Source: Myxococcales bacterium
Lineage (GTDB): Bacteria; Myxococcota_A; Polyangia; Polyangiales; Houyiibacteriaceae
Direction of reading: 5' to 3'
Assembly: GCA_029863605.1 (NCBI GenBank)
Contig: JAOTVB010000006.1
Span: 1 to 64,000 of the forward strand
DNA: 64,000 nt
A program made the position numbers and the translations under genes. Positions 31,743-41,580 of this stretch are shown piece by piece. The notes under the pieces were generated by a model. The model saw nothing but the letters and a program-made list of their open reading frames with translations. It was not told the DNA's origin and made no database searches. Every line of letters begins with the position of its first letter. The stretch's first letter is position 1.

Positions 31743-32789
31743 GTGAGCGAAGAACTCGGCCGAGAGTACGACAGCTTGCTCTTCGCTTCTTTTGGGGGGC
31801 CTGAGCAACGCGAGGATGTCATGCCTTTCCTCGAAAACGTCGTGCGGGGCAAGAACGTCCCCAAGGAACGACTCGAAGAAGTCGCGGAGCACTACTACCA
31901 TTTCGACGGCAAGAGTCCGATCAACGATCAGAATCGCGCTTTGATCGCTGCTCTCGAAAAGGAATTGAAGGCGCACGACATCGACCTTCCGATCTACTGG
32001 GGTAACCGCAATTGGGATCCCACGTTTGGAGGGGCCTTGCGCCAGATGAAAGCGGACGGGCGAAAGCGCGCGCTTGCGTTCGTGACTTCGGCATACAGCA
32101 GCTACAGCGGCTGCCGTCAGTATCGCGAGGCCATCGAGGAGGCACGACAAGAAATCGGCGACGGCGCTCCCGAGGTCGACAAGCTCCGCGTTTTTTACAA
32201 TCATCCTGGCTTCATCGAGGCCAACGTCGACGGCCTGCTGGCCGCTTTCGAGACGCTTCCCAAGGAGCGTCGGGAAAGCGCTCGAATTGCGTTTACTGCA
32301 CACAGCATTCCGTGCTCCATGGCGGAAACCTCGGACTATGCGGACCAGCTCGAGGAGACGGCACGGCTGGTTGCCGAGGGGGCGCGCAACGATCGGTGGC
32401 AGTTGGTTTACCAAAGCCGAAGTGGCCCTCCGCACGTGCCGTGGCTCGGCCCCGACATCTTGGAGCATCTCGACGCCCTTTCGAAGATCAACGTCAAGGA
32501 TGTCGTCGTCGCACCGATAGGGTTTCTGTCGGACCACATGGAGGTGGTCTGGGACCTCGACATCGAGGCACGCAATCTTGCGAACAACTTAGGCATTACC
32601 CTGACACGGGCGCCGACCGTCGGAACGCATTCAGCCTTCGTCTCGATGATCCGCGAGCTGATCGAGGAGCGACTCGGCCGTACGGAAACCCGGCAAGCGG
32701 TTGGGAAACGCGGCCCGTCACACGACGTGTGTCCGCCCGATTGCTGCCAGTACGAAGCGAAGGTGTCCCGGCCGCCCAGCAAGCCCTGA
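31743..32789 (+). CDS. hemH: Ferrochelatase
   Basis: Inserts Fe2+ into a porphyrin in the last heme steps. LLFASFGGPEQREDVMPFL opens the family fold; the GLY-like VTSAYSSYSGCRQYREAI block, FTAHSIP (catalytic His) and VAPIGFLSDHMEVVWDLD follow. 348 residues, GTG start at 31743. Cys124 in the SGC segment and the C-terminal CPPDCC (residues ~332-337) resemble the ligands of [2Fe-2S]-bearing microbial ferrochelatases. Porphyrin substrate (proto- or coproporphyrin) is not settled. It ends next to the convergent crotonase gene. Confidence 0.95.
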   Translation: MSEELGREYDSLLFASFGGPEQREDVMPFLENVVRGKNVPKERLEEVAEHYYHFDGKSPINDQNRALIAALEKELKAHDIDLPIYWGNRNWDPTFGGALRQMKADGRKRALAFVTSAYSSYSGCRQYREAIEEARQEIGDGAPEVDKLRVFYNHPGFIEANVDGLLAAFETLPKERRESARIAFTAHSIPCSMAETSDYADQLEETARLVAEGARNDRWQLVYQSRSGPPHVPWLGPDILEHLDALSKINVKDVVVAPIGFLSDHMEVVWDLDIEARNLANNLGITLTRAPTVGTHSAFVSMIRELIEERLGRTETRQAVGKRGPSHDVCPPDCCQYEAKVSRPPSKP

Positions 32790-33584
32790 TCACTCGGGAT
32801 CAGCGAACGAGGGATCGCGCTTCATCATGTTGGCCTGGACAGCCTCCATTTGATTGGGGCTTCCAAGGAGCGCTACCTGTAGCTCGGTCTCGAGCTTGAG
32901 CGCATCGGCTTGCGACAAGCCCGGGGCCTCGTTGAAGAGCCTCTTGGCTGCGCGGATGGCGTGGGGCGACTTTTTGGTGATGAGCTTCGCCAAGGCGAGC
33001 GCCTCGTCGAGCGGATTCTCACAGATCTTGGTCGCAACACCGAGCTCCACTGCCTCGGTGCCCGACAGGATTCGGCCCGTGAACGTGAGCTCCTTCGCGA
33101 TGTCGATTGGAACGAGCCGCAGCAGCGTTTGCGTGATGCTCATGTCTGGAATCAGCCCCCACTTGATCTCCATCACCGAAAGCTTCGCATCCGGCCTGAC
33201 GTAGCGGAGGTCAGCGCCGAGGGCGATCTGCAAGCCCCCACCGAACGCGACTCCGTGCACCGCGGCGATCACGGGCACCGGCACTTCCTGCCAAACCCAT
33301 GCGGCCCGCTGCGCGACATTCGCTGGGCTTTCGTCGCCGCGGTCGAGCAATTTCTCATTGATATCGGCCGTGGCCATGAATGCCTGGAAGTCGAGACCGG
33401 CGCAGAAGCCCTTGCCCTCGCCGTGCAAGACGACCGCGCGCACCGTCTTGTCTGCCGCCACGCGTGTCCCTGTATCGATCAACGCGTCGAACATGTCCGG
33501 GTCCAGCCCGTTGAGCTTGTCGCCCCGCGAAAGACGAACGGTTGCCACGCCGTTATCGATGGTGAGCTTTACTCTGTCGGACAT
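32790..33584 (-). CDS. Enoyl-CoA hydratase/isomerase family protein (crotonase)
   Basis: 264 residues. VRAVVLHGEGKGFCAGLDFQ contains the oxyanion-hole region, and AAVHGVAFGGGLQIALGADL is the second conserved loop. The isomerase/hydratase Glu pair is not clear, so the exact reaction is open. AGGAGG sits 5 bases before ATG 33584. It follows purU by 18 bases on the same strand. Cytosolic acyl-CoA metabolism. Confidence 0.9.
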   Translation of the reverse strand: MSDRVKLTIDNGVATVRLSRGDKLNGLDPDMFDALIDTGTRVAADKTVRAVVLHGEGKGFCAGLDFQAFMATADINEKLLDRGDESPANVAQRAAWVWQEVPVPVIAAVHGVAFGGGLQIALGADLRYVRPDAKLSVMEIKWGLIPDMSITQTLLRLVPIDIAKELTFTGRILSGTEAVELGVATKICENPLDEALALAKLITKKSPHAIRAAKRLFNEAPGLSQADALKLETELQVALLGSPNQMEAVQANMMKRDPSFADPE

Positions 33585-34505: not shown

Positions 34506-35744
34506 CTATCGGCTGAGGCGCTCCATCGCGTCGCCAAAGATGTAGACCAGCTGCAATACGCCGGCCACGGTCCCGAGCACCGCCCCCGCGGCGATCAGCT
34601 TCCACTCGTCCTGTTGGAATGCCGGCCGGAGCACGCCCTCGTAGGTCGCCCTGTCGAGCGCTGCCATTCGGCGCTCGAGCTCTCCCTGCAGGTCTACCGC
34701 CTCGGCGGCGAAGGTATGGAAGAACCCCCCGGGTTTCGGCCATTCCCGCTCTATTCGTTCGAGTAGTTCGGCGCGAAACTGAGGGCGTCTTTCGGCAGGA
34801 AGCACCAGGGCGGCTATCGGGTGGGCTTCGTACTTGCCGATGAGCTCGCCGACTCGCTGCTCGACGATTTCGTTCATCCGAATGGCGCCCGGGCTGTCCA
34901 TGACCGAGATCACGATGTTGTCGGCATTGAGGACCTTGTTGGCCACGGTTCGACCAAACGCCTGGGCGACCTCCGCCTGACGCTTGTGAAACAGCCCTTG
35001 CACGGTCATCGGACCGATCTTCACCGGCTCCCGAGGATGAAACACCAGCTTCAGCGCGATCCAGTTGGTCACGTAGCCGACACCGAAGCCCGCCGCAGGC
35101 AAGATCCACGGTGCCGGATACGTCACCCACACCGCCATTTGAACGATGCCGAAGAGGAAGCCGAAGTACAGGCCCGAACGCTCGATGAACTTGAACTCTT
35201 TGCGACCGACATCGTAGAACATCTCGCCCATTAGCCCCTTTTGGCGGTCCACCGCTTCGAGAATCGTCTTTTCGATGTTGAGAATTGCGTCGATGTCGTC
35301 GGCCATGTCCATCGCGATCGCACGCGAGACTTCCACGACCTCTGCGCGCACCTGAGCACGCACCTTGTTTTGCATGAACTCACCGGCGTTGTCCCACATC
35401 GGCTTGGCATGCTTGTTGGCGATCTCGTCTATGGCCTGCTCGGTGATGTCATCGACGACTGCGCCGAGCTTGCATTCGAACGCGTCTGTGCTGAAGCTCG
35501 CATCGAAGAGGTCACGCAACGACAAAAGCTTTTGGGTGATCAAGGCGTTCGACACTCTGGCGAGCCGGAGAGCATTGGCTGGGATCACACCCTGCCATCC
35601 CAAGTACGGAGGGATGCCGACGAACTCGACCGGATGGAACATCATCTTGACGGCGACGACATTCGTGAACCATCCGACGAAGGCGCTGATCACGGGGATC
35701 AGCAGGACAATCCAGTTTTCTTGAATGCGGGTCAGCAATTCCAT
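34506..35744 (-). CDS. DUF445-family membrane protein
   Basis: 412 residues. The N-terminal VGWFTNVVAVKMMFHPVEF repeated later as GYVTNWIALKLVFHPREPV marks the DUF445 family; the motif occurs twice, so the protein is an internal duplication. An N-terminal and a C-terminal hydrophobic helix anchor it, with amphipathic helical middle parts. Its role is unknown; other members are annotated only as membrane proteins. Gene order on the minus strand is NUDIX, this gene, purU, crotonase with gaps of 18-48 bases. Confidence 0.88.
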   Translation of the reverse strand: MELLTRIQENWIVLLIPVISAFVGWFTNVVAVKMMFHPVEFVGIPPYLGWQGVIPANALRLARVSNALITQKLLSLRDLFDASFSTDAFECKLGAVVDDITEQAIDEIANKHAKPMWDNAGEFMQNKVRAQVRAEVVEVSRAIAMDMADDIDAILNIEKTILEAVDRQKGLMGEMFYDVGRKEFKFIERSGLYFGFLFGIVQMAVWVTYPAPWILPAAGFGVGYVTNWIALKLVFHPREPVKIGPMTVQGLFHKRQAEVAQAFGRTVANKVLNADNIVISVMDSPGAIRMNEIVEQRVGELIGKYEAHPIAALVLPAERRPQFRAELLERIEREWPKPGGFFHTFAAEAVDLQGELERRMAALDRATYEGVLRPAFQQDEWKLIAAGAVLGTVAGVLQLVYIFGDAMERLSR

Positions 35745-35773
35745 CGCGGTTCTGACGGTCTGGCTTCAGTGGG

Positions 35774-36304
35774 TCATTTAGGGGTGTAAATGTGCATCCA
35801 GTACAGCAGCAGCGCGATGGTTTTCCCATCTTCGATGTGTCCGTCCTTCAGCATGTCGCGCACTTGCCATGAGGGGAGGGGAAAGACTGCGATCTCTTCG
35901 GATTCGTCGAGCGCTTGCGCCGTTTGTTCGAGCTCGGTGGCCAGGTAGCCGTACATCCTCTCGTTCAGGATCCCCGGTGAAGCAAAGAACTCGGTCAGAG
36001 GTTTGATCGTCTTGGCACGGTAGCCCGTCTCCTCTTCGAGCTCTCGCGCTGCGCACTCCTCAGGGGGCTCGCCTTCTTCTAACGTCCCAGCCGGCAGCTC
36101 CCAAAGGGTTTTGCCGACCGTCCGTCGTAGATTTCGGATCAGCACGACCCGGCCATCGTCGAGGACGGGAAGAATCACCGCCGCGCCCGGATGCTCGACG
36201 ACGTCTCGAGTGATCTCCCCACCGCCGGGGGCGTCGAACTTCAACCGTGCGACGTCGAACTTTGCGGCTTTGAGCAGCAACTCTCGCTCCTTCATGGCGT
36301 GCAT
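35774..36304 (-). CDS. NUDIX hydrolase (ADP-ribose pyrophosphatase-like)
   Basis: The NUDIX box GTLEEGEPPEECAARELEEE, followed by TGY, supplies the metal-binding Glu residues. A preceding beta domain (VILPVLDDGRVVLIRNLRR) is typical of ADP-ribose/nucleoside-diphosphate-sugar pyrophosphatases. ATG 36304 (or 36295) is chosen; the longer frame reaches into the divergent SGNH gene. 176 residues. It heads the minus-strand NUDIX-DUF445-purU-crotonase group. Confidence 0.92.
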   Translation of the reverse strand: MHAMKERELLLKAAKFDVARLKFDAPGGGEITRDVVEHPGAAVILPVLDDGRVVLIRNLRRTVGKTLWELPAGTLEEGEPPEECAARELEEETGYRAKTIKPLTEFFASPGILNERMYGYLATELEQTAQALDESEEIAVFPLPSWQVRDMLKDGHIEDGKTIALLLYWMHIYTPK

Positions 36305-36372
36305 AATGGCCGACTTCTCGCCGGTTCTCACGTCAATTTGACTGGATCGGGACGGATCGCCATTGTGGGGAC

Positions 36373-37797
36373 GTGCGGCTCGAAAATCCATGGGGCTCAC
36401 CGATCGCGGTGGTTTCGGTTGGATTGGCGTTGGCGGGCGTTTGGACGCTCGGCTACGGCGCCGCCACGACGTCGGCCGACGCGACGACGAAGGCACCTGC
36501 AGCAATCGACGAGACCGGAGTCGTCGAGGCCGTGAAGTCCGCCCAACGCATGGGGCCTCGTCTTCTTCGGCCGCCGCCCAACGACAAGCTCGGGCTCGAT
36601 ATCGCGATCGAGGATCGCGACGGCGAATCGATGAAGGCTCTGCACGAAGCCTTGGCGCGGGCGCAGGCCGGCGAAGGGCAAGCCCGCTTAGCGTTCTTCG
36701 GGGCTTCCCACGTCGCGAGCGACCTCTTCACCGGTCACATTCGACGCGAGCTGCAAGCGAGGTTCGGCGATGCGGGGCATGGCTTCGTCGTGCCCGTGCA
36801 TCCGTGGCGGACCTATCGACATCGAGACATCAACATCGAGAGTGACGCCCAGCGTTGGGAGACTCATCGTATTCGCGTCGGCGACTCCGAGGTCGAGCAA
36901 GTCGGAATCGCTGGAGTGGCAATGGCGAGCAATCGCCCCGGGTCGTTCGGCGTGGTCAGGACCGCAGAGGAAGGCGATCACGGAAGAAACGCCGGCTTCT
37001 TCGAGCTTTACTATCTCAAGACACCCCGTGGAGGCGACCTGGATGTCCTGATCGACGGTCGGCGGGCGCGGCGGATCTCGACACGCGCCTCGAGCACGGG
37101 ACCTGGTTACGCCACGTTTCGGGTCCCGGACGGTCCTCATAGCTTCGAAATTCGGACGCTCAGCAAACGACCGGTGTGGCTTTTCGGTCTGACCGTCGAG
37201 CGGGACCAACCGGGGGTCGTCGTCGATACTCTGGGCATCAATGGGTCACGCGCGCGCTACCAGCTATTGTGGGATGACGCTCTCTATCACGAGCATCTTC
37301 GACGGCGCGACCCCGACCTCGTCGTCCTGGCATACGGCACGAACGAAAGTGGCGACGAGTCACCTCTCGAAGATTACGAGCGCGACTTGCGTGCCGTCGT
37401 TGACCGCATGCGTGACGCCGTCCCGGACGCGTCCTGCCTCTTGATCGGCCCGTCCGATCGGCCCACGCAGGTCGAAGAGCGCGTCTTCGAGGACCGCGCA
37501 CGCACCGCAGCGGTGATCTCGATCCAGCACCGCGTTGCACTAGAGCACGGGTGCGGGTTCTTCGATCTCGTTGCGTTCCAAGGCGGCGCGCTCTCGATGG
37601 TGCAGTGGGCGGCTAGCGACCCCGCCTATGCTTCGCAAGACCACATCCATTATACGCGCCTCGGCTATCAGCGGTTGGGCGAGGTGCTGCTGTCGGCGTT
37701 GCTCGACGGAATGCCGGTCTCGGGTGACTCGGATGCCGAGATAGGGTCTACCGCCTCGGCAGACGCGGGATCTGGCGACGAGCCATCGGCCAAGTAG
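36373..37797 (+). CDS. SGNH-family esterase/acyltransferase A (exported)
   Basis: 474 residues with an N-terminal hydrophobic anchor. SGNH blocks: FFGASHVASD (Ser near 36705), LVVLAYGTNESGDE (Asn block, about 37320) and DHIHYTRLGYQ (Asp-His, about 37640). It is a clear paralogue of the 538-residue gene opposite (shared FGDAGHGFV, GPH, LTVERDQPGVVVDTLG-like segments). In AlgJ/DltD/PatB-type systems such a protein hands acyl groups from an MBOAT to envelope polymers. GTG start at 36373. The last 130 bases overlap the convergent paralogue. Confidence 0.82.
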   Translation: MRLENPWGSPIAVVSVGLALAGVWTLGYGAATTSADATTKAPAAIDETGVVEAVKSAQRMGPRLLRPPPNDKLGLDIAIEDRDGESMKALHEALARAQAGEGQARLAFFGASHVASDLFTGHIRRELQARFGDAGHGFVVPVHPWRTYRHRDINIESDAQRWETHRIRVGDSEVEQVGIAGVAMASNRPGSFGVVRTAEEGDHGRNAGFFELYYLKTPRGGDLDVLIDGRRARRISTRASSTGPGYATFRVPDGPHSFEIRTLSKRPVWLFGLTVERDQPGVVVDTLGINGSRARYQLLWDDALYHEHLRRRDPDLVVLAYGTNESGDESPLEDYERDLRAVVDRMRDAVPDASCLLIGPSDRPTQVEERVFEDRARTAAVISIQHRVALEHGCGFFDLVAFQGGALSMVQWAASDPAYASQDHIHYTRLGYQRLGEVLLSALLDGMPVSGDSDAEIGSTASADAGSGDEPSAK

Positions 37798-39278
37798 TCG
37801 GCGAAGCCTGCCAACAGAGCCTTGTAGAACATGTTGCCGATGATCTCGTAGCCAGCGGGGGTCGCATGTCGAAAGTCGCTCATCGCGAGTCGGGGATGCG
37901 CCTTGTACCACCGTCGCATGGCGTCTCGTCCGCCCATTGCCTCCCAGGTGTTGTAGAAGGCGCATCCTGCTTCTAAAGCAGCCCGGCGCTGGGCCGCGAC
38001 GATTCGCGGGATCGTCTCCAACGTCCGAATTCGGCCGCGTCGCCGTGAAGCCTGGTCGAGCGGCGCGAACACCAGACAACCCAGGTCTTCGCGGCCCTGG
38101 CGGACATGGGCCAGAACCCGGGCGTAGTCTTCGTAGAAAAGGTGTTCCGGTTTGTCGTCGCTGGCTTCGTTCCCGCCGAACCCGAGCACGACGAGGTCGG
38201 TGCCACGTTGCTTCAGCTGGCTTGCGATGTGCGCCTCTTCGAAGTTGAGAAGCCGGTTTGCACGCGCTCCCACCAGGCCGAGCGAGTCGTAAACGACCCC
38301 TGGCCCATCTCGTTCGACGACCACACCATAGAAATGAACCGGCCCGCCCTTCTTGTACCGGACATGAATCTGATGTGGACCATCGGGGGCGTCGACCGAA
38401 TAGACTGCATCGCCCAGCTCGGGCGCTTTCGTCGAGATTTCCTCCCAGTCCCCGCGATCCAATCGCACGGCGAACGTGCCGCCTCGAGGCTGCTCTTGAT
38501 AGTAGATATCGAAGCGTGATGCTTTGGTACCGAGCTCTCCACGTGGAGCCGTGGCTACGCGAGCCCATGCGCCTCTTTGCGCTCTCGATTGAACGCCTCC
38601 GTACCCGTAGCGCCCGTGACGATCCTGGCGACGCGCGACTTCCCGGGTGATCCAGCTATCATCATTGGAGGACTGGCGAACACCTCGATGCTTGTAAGGG
38701 ATGTGCCCCGTTGCAGCGATGACGAACCCATGTCCGGCATCCCCGAAGCGGCGCTGAAGCTGCCCGCGGACCGTCGATGTGATCAGGTCGGTTGCGATGC
38801 TCGAATCGCCATAGTGACCGACTCGTGTGATCGCTCCGGCTTCTTCCTTCGCCGTCTTTTCGAGCGCACGATAGAAGGGAGCCATACCGCGGCCTGAAGG
38901 ATCTTCTATGAAGACCGAAATTCCGGCGTACTCGTCCGGATCGATCTTGAAGCCGTCTGTCGCCTTTTGAATTGGCTTGACGACGGAAGCGCCCAAGTTC
39001 GCTGCCACGGTCTCGCCGACCGTCTCGGCGAGCCGAGCGGTGCTCTTCGACCCGGTAGTAGTTGCACGATACGAGCCTCCATGGCCAGCAAAGGCGGGGA
39101 TCTCACCCCATCGCCGGAACAGCCGAACGATCGGGATACCCTCTTCACTCGGAATCCAGGGGCGAAGCGAATGAAGCGGAGGCACGACGTACGTCAGCGT
39201 GCAGGCGACCAGCATGAACAGGGTCACAATCGCGAGGTGCTGAAGGGGAGTTGGCTGTGTGAGGGTTCGTTTCGTCAT
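37668..39278 (-). CDS. SGNH-family esterase/acyltransferase B (exported)
   Basis: ATG at 39278 overlaps the MBOAT stop (TGATG), so it is coupled to it. 536 residues. One N-terminal transmembrane helix (LQHLAIVTLFMLVACTLTYV), then HYGDSSIATD (Ser), LVVLGFGGNEASDD (Asn block) and SDFRHATPAGYE (Asp-His). Paralogue of the convergent gene; shared segments include RFGDAGHGFV, VVVERDGPGVVYDSLGL. The Ser block reads GDSS here but GASH in the other copy. Its stop lies 130 bases inside the opposite gene. The MBOAT-SGNH pairing suggests O-acetylation of an envelope or extracellular polysaccharide. Confidence 0.85.
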   Translation of the reverse strand: MTKRTLTQPTPLQHLAIVTLFMLVACTLTYVVPPLHSLRPWIPSEEGIPIVRLFRRWGEIPAFAGHGGSYRATTTGSKSTARLAETVGETVAANLGASVVKPIQKATDGFKIDPDEYAGISVFIEDPSGRGMAPFYRALEKTAKEEAGAITRVGHYGDSSIATDLITSTVRGQLQRRFGDAGHGFVIAATGHIPYKHRGVRQSSNDDSWITREVARRQDRHGRYGYGGVQSRAQRGAWARVATAPRGELGTKASRFDIYYQEQPRGGTFAVRLDRGDWEEISTKAPELGDAVYSVDAPDGPHQIHVRYKKGGPVHFYGVVVERDGPGVVYDSLGLVGARANRLLNFEEAHIASQLKQRGTDLVVLGFGGNEASDDKPEHLFYEDYARVLAHVRQGREDLGCLVFAPLDQASRRRGRIRTLETIPRIVAAQRRAALEAGCAFYNTWEAMGGRDAMRRWYKAHPRLAMSDFRHATPAGYEIIGNMFYKALLAGFADYLADGSSPDPASAEAVDPISASESPETGIPSSNADSSTSPNR

Positions 39279-40705
39279 CAGAATTGGAAGTAGATGTAAG
39301 GGACGACTTGACTGGTCGCGATGAAGCTGAGGGCAAAACCGAGACACGCAAGCGCCACTCCTTGGGCGGGCGCAGGCATCGCCATGAACCGTGCTTCGAT
39401 CGATTCAAACCACCGCTTCGGCGTGTAGTGGAGGAGAAAGGTGACGATCAGCATGGCCCACACTTCGGCTGAGATTTGGGCGACGCCATAGTTGCCGCTC
39501 CCCAGACGTGTCGTGACATCGACCGCGTTTTGCAGGCTGGTCGCACGGAACAGGATCCGTGAGAACACAACGAACTGGAGCGCCCAGAATACCTTGAAGG
39601 CATGAACCTGCCAGGCATCGACGGTGTCGCGGGTGCGCCCCGACCGACGATAGAAGAAGCGATGGATGACCATCGCCATGGATTGGAGGATCGCGTAGAA
39701 CACGAACGTCCAAGACGCGCCGTGCCAAATTCCAATGAGAAACATGGTGAGCCAGAGGTTCCAGTACGCCCGAATCGGGCCGACACGCGAGCCCCCGAGG
39801 GGGAAATACAAATAGTCGCGAAGCCAGGTCGAGAGCGTGATGTGCCATCGCCGCCAGAACTCGGCCGGGCTCGCAGACTGGTATGGGCGGTCGAAGTTCT
39901 CGGGAAGCTCGAGCCCCATCAGCTTTGCCGAACCCCGAGCGCAATCCGTGTAACCAGAGAAGTCGCAGTAGATTTGCATCGTGAAACCGTACAGAGCGAC
40001 CACGACCTCCGCACTGGTGTAGAGCTCGGGTTGATCGAAGACCCGGTCGACTAGATTGACCGAAAGGTAGTCCGCAATTGCGACTTTCTTCACGAGGCCT
40101 GTTGCGATGAGAAAGATGCCCTGAGTGACCTGGTTCTCGCGAAGGGTGATCTTGCGCGCGAGTTGCGGGAGCAGCTGCGAGGCTCGAACGATTGGACCCG
40201 CGACCAGTTGCGGAAAGTAAGTCACGAAAACGGCGAACTGAAAGAAGTTGCGCGTCGGCTCGAGCTTCCGCCGATAGATGTCGATCGTATAGCTGAGGGT
40301 CTGAAACGTGTAGAACGAGATCCCGACCGGAAGGAGCACGTCGAGGAAAGGCGGGTGCTCGATCGTCATTCCGAACAAGAGATGAAAGACGTCGGCCGTA
40401 GCTTGAGAGGCGAAGTTGAAGTACTTGAAGGCGCCCAGCAGGCCCAGATTCGAAACGAGGCTCACGATGAGCCATCGCTTGCGGACCTTTTCGTCGTTGC
40501 TGGCGTAAATCCGGAAGCCCACCACGTAGTCGACCACCGTCGAGGTCAGGATCAGAACGATGTACGCCGGGTGCCACGCCATGTAGAACAGGCACGAGGC
40601 GACGAAGAGAAGCACCATTCGGAGCTGGGTCTGCTTCGCCAGCAACCAAAAGCCTGCGACGGCCAGTCCGAGAAATACAATGTAGTCGAGGCTGCTGAAG
40701 AGCAC
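39278..40705 (-). CDS. MBOAT-family O-acyltransferase (AlgI-like)
   Basis: GTG at 40705 preceded by AGGGG with 6-base spacing (minus) gives the normal MLFSSLDYIVFLGL start. About 10 hydrophobic helices. YCDFSGYTDCARGSAKLMGL is characteristic, as is FWRRWHITLSTWLRDYLYFPLGGSR. The catalytic His is in GIWHGASWTFVFY. 475 residues. It passes an acyl group across the membrane, probably to the SGNH partner that starts on its stop codon. AlgI, DltB and PatA are the known analogues; the polymer acylated here is unknown. Confidence 0.92.
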   Translation of the reverse strand: MLFSSLDYIVFLGLAVAGFWLLAKQTQLRMVLLFVASCLFYMAWHPAYIVLILTSTVVDYVVGFRIYASNDEKVRKRWLIVSLVSNLGLLGAFKYFNFASQATADVFHLLFGMTIEHPPFLDVLLPVGISFYTFQTLSYTIDIYRRKLEPTRNFFQFAVFVTYFPQLVAGPIVRASQLLPQLARKITLRENQVTQGIFLIATGLVKKVAIADYLSVNLVDRVFDQPELYTSAEVVVALYGFTMQIYCDFSGYTDCARGSAKLMGLELPENFDRPYQSASPAEFWRRWHITLSTWLRDYLYFPLGGSRVGPIRAYWNLWLTMFLIGIWHGASWTFVFYAILQSMAMVIHRFFYRRSGRTRDTVDAWQVHAFKVFWALQFVVFSRILFRATSLQNAVDVTTRLGSGNYGVAQISAEVWAMLIVTFLLHYTPKRWFESIEARFMAMPAPAQGVALACLGFALSFIATSQVVPYIYFQF

Positions 40706-40815
40706 TGGTTCCCCTACCCAGCGTGAACGCGCCCGGTTTAGCCGCAGCGGGGGTCGGACGCTAGTTGCTTGACGAAGGGCCTGGTAGGGCGAAGCATCCG
40801 CGGTCGGAGGTCTCG

Positions 40816-41580
40816 ATGAGAATCGACGGTTCGGTAGCGGTGGTGACGGGTGGAGCTTCGGGTTTGGGCGAGGCAACGGTTCGTCAGTGGGTGAGTAAAG
40901 GTGGGCGTGCGGTCATCGTCGATTTGAATACGGAACGCGGCGAGAAGCTGGCGGCCGAGCTCGGTGATGCAGCCTCTTTTGTGCCGGCGGATGTCAGCGA
41001 CGCCCAGCAGGTCGAAGACGCGATCGCCCTTGCGACTTCAATTGGACCGCTTCGTGCGGCCATCAACTGTGCCGGCATCGGGATCGGTCTCCGGACCGTC
41101 GGCAAGGACGGCACGCCGCATGACCTCGGGGCCTTCCAAAAAGTCATATCGGTCAATCTCATCGGCACGTTCAACGTCCTGAGACTCGCCGCGTCTGCGA
41201 TGTACAAAAACGAACCCGAGGACCGGGAGCGTGGCGTCATCATCAATACGGCTTCTGTGGCGGCCTTCGATGGTCAGATCGGCCAAATCGCGTACTCCGC
41301 TTCGAAAGGGGGCATCGTCGGGATGACGCTCCCGGCCGCACGAGATCTCTCGAAGGCGGGGATTCGCGTCGTCACGATCGCCCCCGGCACGTTCGATACC
41401 CCGCTCCTCGGAATGCTCTCGAACGAGATCCGCGCAGCCTTGGCTGCAACGATCCCGCACCCGAGCCGCCTCGGGCGTCCGGACGAGTTCGGTGCGCTCG
41501 CCTGCCATATCGTCGAGAACAGCTATTTGAATGGCGAGGTCATTCGCTTGGATGGCGCGCTTCGCATGGCCCCTCGCTAA
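40816..41580 (+). CDS. Short-chain dehydrogenase (3-hydroxyacyl-CoA dehydrogenase type 2-like)
   Basis: NAD(P)-binding [15 protein letters not shown] (TGxxxGxG), INCAGIG (NAG-like), the Ser-Tyr-Lys set [11 protein letters not shown]...YSASKGG, and [12 protein letters not shown]. The HSD17B10-like form is suggested by [18 protein letters not shown]. 254 residues; GGAGG and ATG 40816 define the start. Probably oxidises 3-hydroxyacyl-CoA in fatty-acid breakdown. Confidence 0.93.

Follow-up and report, generated by a model that had tools for sequence, protein, structure and literature searches.

Peptidoglycan O-acetylation (OAP) clusters of the patA–patB–ape1 type, described in Neisseria and Campylobacter, bring together one MBOAT protein with a C-terminal acetyl-tyrosine motif (PatA), an adjoining SGNH protein (PatB) and an Ape1-type protein (PMC12148441, PMC6174289). 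The tyrosine of the PatA FXYXXF motif is acetylated and acts as donor to PatB (PMC12148441). In C. jejuni, acetate on N-acetylmuramic acid stands at 12.5% in the wild type, falls to 2.5–3% when patA or patB is missing and rises to 35.6% when ape1 is missing (PMC5077204). Two Ape1-family proteins are found together with a pat gene in the ape1b–ape1c–pat clusters (Weadge et al. 2005, PMC1199599), although no literature test of which of Ape1b and Ape1c transfers was found, and MBOAT–SGNH pairs are also at work in the acetylation of alginate, of cellulose and of secondary wall polysaccharides (PMC12148441). Here we describe a locus from a Myxococcales bacterium (GenBank assembly GCA_029863605.1, contig JAOTVB010000006.1, positions 1 to 64,000; this whole stretch of 64,000 nucleotides is referred to below as the window) in which two SGNH genes, designated A and B, converge and overlap at their 3′ ends, with B lying directly downstream of an MBOAT gene. 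We put at roughly 60% the probability that this locus is a variant OAP cluster in which an Ape1-type protein (B) takes the place of PatB, A is an esterase encoded in inverted orientation and the overlap is a by-product.

The original prediction had described two convergent SGNH genes with 130 bp in common, one of them coupled to the MBOAT gene by TGATG, and all of its coordinates hold. The features of the locus are as follows.

36373–37797, forward strand: gene A, a putative Ape1-like SGNH protein of 474 amino acids, GTG start, TAG stop.
Sites in A: Ser112-His113 (36706–36711), oxyanion Gly291 and Asn324, Asp423 (37639), His426 (37648).
Regions of A: signal-like helix at residues 10–26, a beta-sandwich inserted between block I and block II, and a disordered tail at 451–474.
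37668–39278, reverse strand: gene B, a predicted Ape1-fold SGNH protein of 536 amino acids, ATG start, TGA stop, likely the partner of the MBOAT and a transferase.
Sites in B: Ser159 (38804), Gly337, Asn370, Asp468 (37877), His471 (37868).
Regions of B: membrane helix at residues 11–31, linker of ~80 residues to about residue 115, disordered tail at 501–536.
39278–40705, reverse strand: MBOAT protein of 475 amino acids, with His328 (39722–39724) and the C-terminal hexapeptide YIYFQF, in which Tyr472 is encoded by 39290–39292.
39276–39280, reverse strand: TGATG, the MBOAT stop (TGA) overlapping the B start (ATG) with one base in common.
37668–37797, both strands: convergent overlap of 130 bp, coding for A residues 433–474 and B residues 494–536.
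37795–37797, forward strand: TAG stop of A, opposite GAC TAC, which encodes the Asp-Tyr within the conserved FADYL of B.
37668–37670, reverse strand: TGA stop of B, opposite TAT CAG, which encodes the Tyr-Gln within the conserved GYQRLG of A.

Pfam assigns A and B to Lipase_GDSL_2 and the third protein to MBOAT. Besides A and B the genome (4.2 Mb in 54 contigs) has no further match of their kind, and a single MBOAT was found in the whole of it.

Both SGNH proteins are predicted to adopt the full Ape1 fold seen in the N. meningitidis (4k3u) and C. jejuni (8gkd, 8gld) proteins, that is, an SGNH domain with an inserted beta-sandwich (a CBM35-like insert). The predicted structures have mean pLDDT (predicted local distance difference test) values of 84.4 for A and 82.5 for B. 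Compared with 4k3u, the A model gives a Z score of 39.6 over 347 aligned residues and the B model 39.7 over 348, each with a root-mean-square deviation of 2.5, while the best matches other than Ape1 reach 15.9 and 17.3, respectively. Profile searches match Ape1 over the SGNH domain and the insert in both cases (E 4e-48 for A, 1.4e-34 for B). PatB (8tlb, 7tjb) is absent among the best 50 fold matches listed for B (Z of at least 10.4) and AlgJ and AlgX are absent among its fold matches listed, although absence there is not proof.

The segments reported as common to the two proteins are present (RFGDAGHGFV in both, VERDQPGVVVD in A and VERDGPGVVYD in B), and with 34% identity overall (E 4e-68) A and B are, judged by their sequences, ancient paralogues. 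In a tree of 77 proteins, the A and B families each fall on one side of a 100/99 branch, indicating that the duplication predates the families sampled.

It is at the active site that the two copies differ. In 56 A and 60 B homologues we surveyed the residues equivalent to those investigated in Ape1 (PMC6174289). The equivalents of Ser80, His81, Gly236, Asn268, Asp366, Val/Ile368 and His369 are kept in all 56 A proteins, and that of Thr267 in 54. In B, by contrast, Asp79, Ser80, Asn268, Asp366 and His369 are kept throughout and Gly236 in 58 of 60, but His81 is missing from 55 proteins (kept in 5), Thr267 from 57 (kept in 3) and Val368 from 59 (Ile in one); the Asn235 equivalent of Ape1 is missing also. 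The Ape1 active-site signature (GxSH, GTN, Dx[VI]H) is kept in A, therefore, whereas B has GDSS, GGN and DFRH instead. The difference in Ser blocks noted originally for this one pair is a phylum-wide split: 47 A homologues have GASH and the other 9 GDSH, and in 55 B homologues the residue after GDS is not His. Loss of the catalytic set from one copy had been named as an outcome that would count against the original prediction; the catalytic Ser, Asp and His and the oxyanion Asn are present in every A and every B protein, and neither copy appears to be catalytically dead. On these residues A would be Ape1-like, having all of the catalytic features but not Asp79. B is an Ape1-fold paralogue for which PatB function is likely without its being a member of the PatB family: as a sequence-level PatB it was rejected by both profile search and active-site residues.

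The MBOAT protein shows the features expected of PatA, an invariant His and a C-terminal FXYXXF motif. Its His (His328) is invariant in 35 of 35 loci, and a C-terminal hexamer of the form [FY][IV]Y[FG]QF is present in all of these (YIYFQF in 32, and FVYFQF, FIYFQF and FIYGQF in one each), fitting the PatA motif except that the protein of the window begins its hexamer with Tyr. Against the NCBIfam LTA_dltB model the protein scores 165.8 bits, far below the cut-off of 375, and it is not assigned to DltB. Among relatives the usual order is MBOAT then B on the same strand. Across 112 Myxococcota genomes, a related MBOAT is present in 54 of the 54 with a strong match to the B profile and in 34 of the 58 without one (Fisher p 8e-9, without correction for kinship); the B profile also picks up A, so that this comparison tests the pair rather than B individually. 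Linked family pairs (within 6 kb) occur in 36 of the 54 genomes, with 26 convergent, 10 co-directional and none divergent.

These data bear on whether B transfers acetyl groups at all. B might instead be a second, membrane-anchored O-acetylesterase with an editing role on nascent strands, or both proteins might be esterases, with the partner of the MBOAT encoded elsewhere or the MBOAT acting alone. The Ape1 fold of B and the block II Gly that it keeps, as hydrolases do, are in keeping with this, and the genome holds two other GDSL-type matches from which a partner might be drawn. Neither of these looks by eye like an anchored PatB, however, and neither can adjoin an MBOAT, since the genome has no MBOAT other than the one described here. 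Since the MBOAT gene is coupled to B, matches to the B profile are confined to genomes with a related MBOAT, and it is A, not B, that keeps the Ape1 signature, we regard this alternative as unlikely.

The polymer of the original prediction can be sharpened to what is, by analogy with patA–patB–ape1 clusters, most likely peptidoglycan, and of the two copies one is probably a transferase, the other probably an esterase. It is conceivable that the MBOAT and B acetylate an exopolysaccharide or other envelope glycan from which A removes the acetyl groups, in the manner of the alginate (AlgI/AlgJ/AlgX) or cellulose (Wss) systems, and the genes of the neighbourhood name no polymer. Yet the two proteins match the peptidoglycan esterase Ape1 over catalytic domain and insert alike, far above other folds. 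AlgI/AlgJ/AlgX and WssH/WssI similarly combine an MBOAT with one or more SGNH proteins, which according to the literature are other SGNH proteins. Reading the open reading frames (ORFs) that flank the cluster by eye, we recognised no polysaccharide synthase among them and no alginate or cellulose genes beside the locus. A polymer other than peptidoglycan thus seems to us improbable.

In the variant OAP cluster that we favour, the MBOAT would play the role of PatA, loading acetyl from acetyl-coenzyme A onto Tyr472 of its C-terminal YIYFQF. B, encoded in the same operon and probably membrane-anchored (the helix at 11–31 is seen in the model and has a hydropathy peak of 2.2), would take the role of PatB, accepting the acetyl group on Ser159 and passing it to the C6 hydroxyl of N-acetylmuramic acid. 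A, exported and transcribed towards B, would act as Ape1, removing acetyl groups and so letting lytic transglycosylases act. Ancient duplication gave rise to both, with B keeping the Asp of GDSH and losing the His, and most A proteins keeping the His and losing the Asp. The original prediction of a duplicated O-acylation module that adjoins an MBOAT and whose two copies have split roles is borne out to this extent, by the Ape1 fold of both proteins, their opposite signature losses and the tracking of the MBOAT by B; its suggestion of antisense control, discussed below, fares less well.

Compared with the patA–patB–ape1 clusters, the principal difference is that the partner protein here has the Ape1 fold with insert, where PatB is a compact domain (PMC12148441). 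The genes also depart from the co-directional order of those clusters because A is convergent, as in most linked Myxococcota pairs, but in two relatives (G147 and G168) MBOAT, B and A follow one another on a single strand in the patA–patB–ape1 order. The ape1b–ape1c–pat clusters resemble the locus in having two Ape1-family proteins and a pat gene, but in them pat comes after the two ape genes and Ape1c is without the insert of ~100 residues (PMC1199599); at the present locus neither copy lacks the insert, and the MBOAT gene comes before B.

Several observations weigh against this reading. The weakest link is that B has neither the Ser or Asn in block II nor the hydrophobic wall residue that have been proposed as marks of the PatB transferase (PMC12148441): the block II position is Gly337 (Gly in 58 of 60 B proteins), and the catalytic His is preceded by Arg470 (Arg in 39 of 60) where PatB has Ile or Val. 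As these are features proposed to favour transfer, B, if a transferase, must have become one by a different route. B also retains the Ape1-type insert that PatB is without. A for its part is an imperfect Ape1, with Ala in 47 of 56 homologues and Asp in only 9 at the position of Asp79, a residue proposed to position the catalytic residues of Ape1 or to bind substrate (PMC6174289); A is GASH where Ape1 is GDSH. Finally, nothing in the flanking ORFs suggests peptidoglycan, and we found no experiment on these organisms and, in the open literature, no direct study of peptidoglycan O-acetylation in Myxococcus.

We consider the chances about even for a broader proposal, namely that in Myxococcota the partner of the MBOAT is an Ape1-fold protein rather than PatB, an ancestral Ape1-type protein having duplicated, with GDSx, GGN and DxRH marking the resulting transferase and GASH, GTN and Dx[VI]H the esterase. 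If so, A and B would form a natural paired sequence set in which transferase is separated from hydrolase within one fold. Were B a transferase, the SGNH domain with Ape1 insert would yield both acetyl-adding and acetyl-removing enzymes in one cluster across the phylum, the block II Ser/Asn and hydrophobic wall proposed for PatB would not be needed, and the OAP pathway would extend to Myxococcota with its esterase gene inverted. How a hydrolase becomes a transferase could then be addressed with two aligned families that differ at few active-site positions.

The overlap between A and B is no artefact of assembly, as it is present in all 16 genomes of the genus (this one included) in which both 3′ ends are readable. 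Its length in these ranges from 100 to 172 bp and always leaves a remainder of one on division by three, which pairs each gene's third codon positions with those of the other. The stop of A is TAG and lies opposite an X-Tyr pair of B in all 16 (FADYL in most), and the stop of B lies opposite Tyr-Gln of A in 13, Gly-Tyr in two and Ile-His in one. In this phase, a stop appears on the other strand wherever a Tyr codon follows a pyrimidine-ending codon, or a His or Gln codon follows a T-ending codon, and the conserved C-terminal residues of each gene thus cap the run-on of its neighbour. Between these limits the predicted structures have only the disordered tails (A 451–474, B 501–536) and the last helix of A. 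The overlap would have arisen by each gene losing its own stop and running on to the one imposed by a conserved C-terminal residue of the partner. Its length cannot be called far beyond chance: for 33% of 46 genes picked from the window, an opposite-strand frame could run in for at least 130 bp in the same phase.

In other families the A–B pair is separated, by gaps of up to 4.9 kb, or overlaps by 4–98 bp in other phases; across all relatives, overlaps of 4–172 bp occur in all three phases, and the long overlap requires two changes on the tree. That it is so restricted suggests that the long overlap is a secondary feature of a convergent arrangement that is itself old. In two of the genomes with separated genes the spacer has a structure of its own. 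In G020 (L057:5856–6022) it is an element resembling a miniature inverted-repeat transposable element, bounded by 30-nt inverted repeats that are 90% complementary and lie 107 nt apart, and reaching both stops, and in G052 (L064:6017–6089) it contains a 34-nt inverted repeat (79% complementary, 5-nt loop) that may be a terminator or a mobile repeat. B can also overlap a different gene. In G024 (L055:6492–6639) and G022 (L053:6252–6360) a YhfC gene (PF10086) is convergent to B, with overlaps of 148 and 109 bp that are in the same phase as that of A and B, begin at the C-terminal Tyr-Leu of B and encode Ser/Ala/Asp/Glu-rich tails in both frames.

Two lines of evidence indicate that at least one of the tails is probably translated. 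Within the genus, the tails have undergone 10–11 length changes, all of them multiples of three, and in the middle of the overlap (three species pairs) changes are found at 28 of 71 third positions as opposed to 20 of 139 first and second positions (p 1e-4). Tails of pure junk are disfavoured by these same observations. As the third positions are common to both frames, the translated tail cannot be assigned to A or to B. Codon positions 1 and 2 change faster in the tails than in the bodies, ~3x in A and ~1.5x in B. A conserved functional domain in both frames is rejected, pLDDT being under 50 for A 451–474 and B 501–536; the B tail does contain a conserved GIPSS...TSP, but this lies opposite the last helix of A, from which its conservation can stem.

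The original prediction had raised possible antisense control through the overlap, and in its strongest form this would be a conserved switch, in which convergent transferase and esterase transcripts interfere and one is made at the other's expense. Antagonistic enzymes would be a sensible target, the tail-to-tail order is old (convergent pairs being the commonest and divergent pairs absent, as above), the overlap has been kept in all 16 genus members through its multiple-of-three length changes and a consensus scan found no intrinsic terminator between A and B. Preservation of phase is explained, however, if just one tail is translated, and many relatives that keep the convergent pair have no overlap, a shorter one or one in another phase. 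The RNA folding of the overlap is unremarkable (z −0.10 and −0.36), giving no support to a structured regulatory RNA, the tails are mostly disordered and faster-changing than the bodies, and the overlap of B with the unrelated YhfC gene in two relatives is about as long. A conserved switch is therefore quite doubtful in our view, and antisense control as a conserved feature is not supported, although the long-lived tail-to-tail order means that convergent transcription could have some effect. Rather than a control device, the overlap looks like run-on of the ordinary kind in a GC-rich genome, and as such offers a clear worked example of how long convergent overlaps can form in genomes of this type. 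Consensus scans for transcription signals found no sigma-70-like promoter in 35700–41000, and terminator-like sites numbered 5 as against 4.5 in shuffled sequence; both scans are uninformative for this phylum.

Other observations concern the surroundings of the locus and the wider protein family. Another secreted GDSL-type protein (G000:C28:131321–131698), away from the MBOAT, carries a long Asp/Ala/Thr repeat (DADADADAGADTDTG) after its catalytic part. Upstream of A, a NUDIX hydrolase gene (reverse strand, window positions 35774–36373, start at about 36298) is divergent from it, with ~75 bp between the two starts. Elsewhere in the window, convergent ORFs at 31743–32789 (forward strand) and 32790–33584 (reverse strand), which by eye are ferrochelatase-like and enoyl-CoA hydratase-like, respectively, have stop codons that directly abut.

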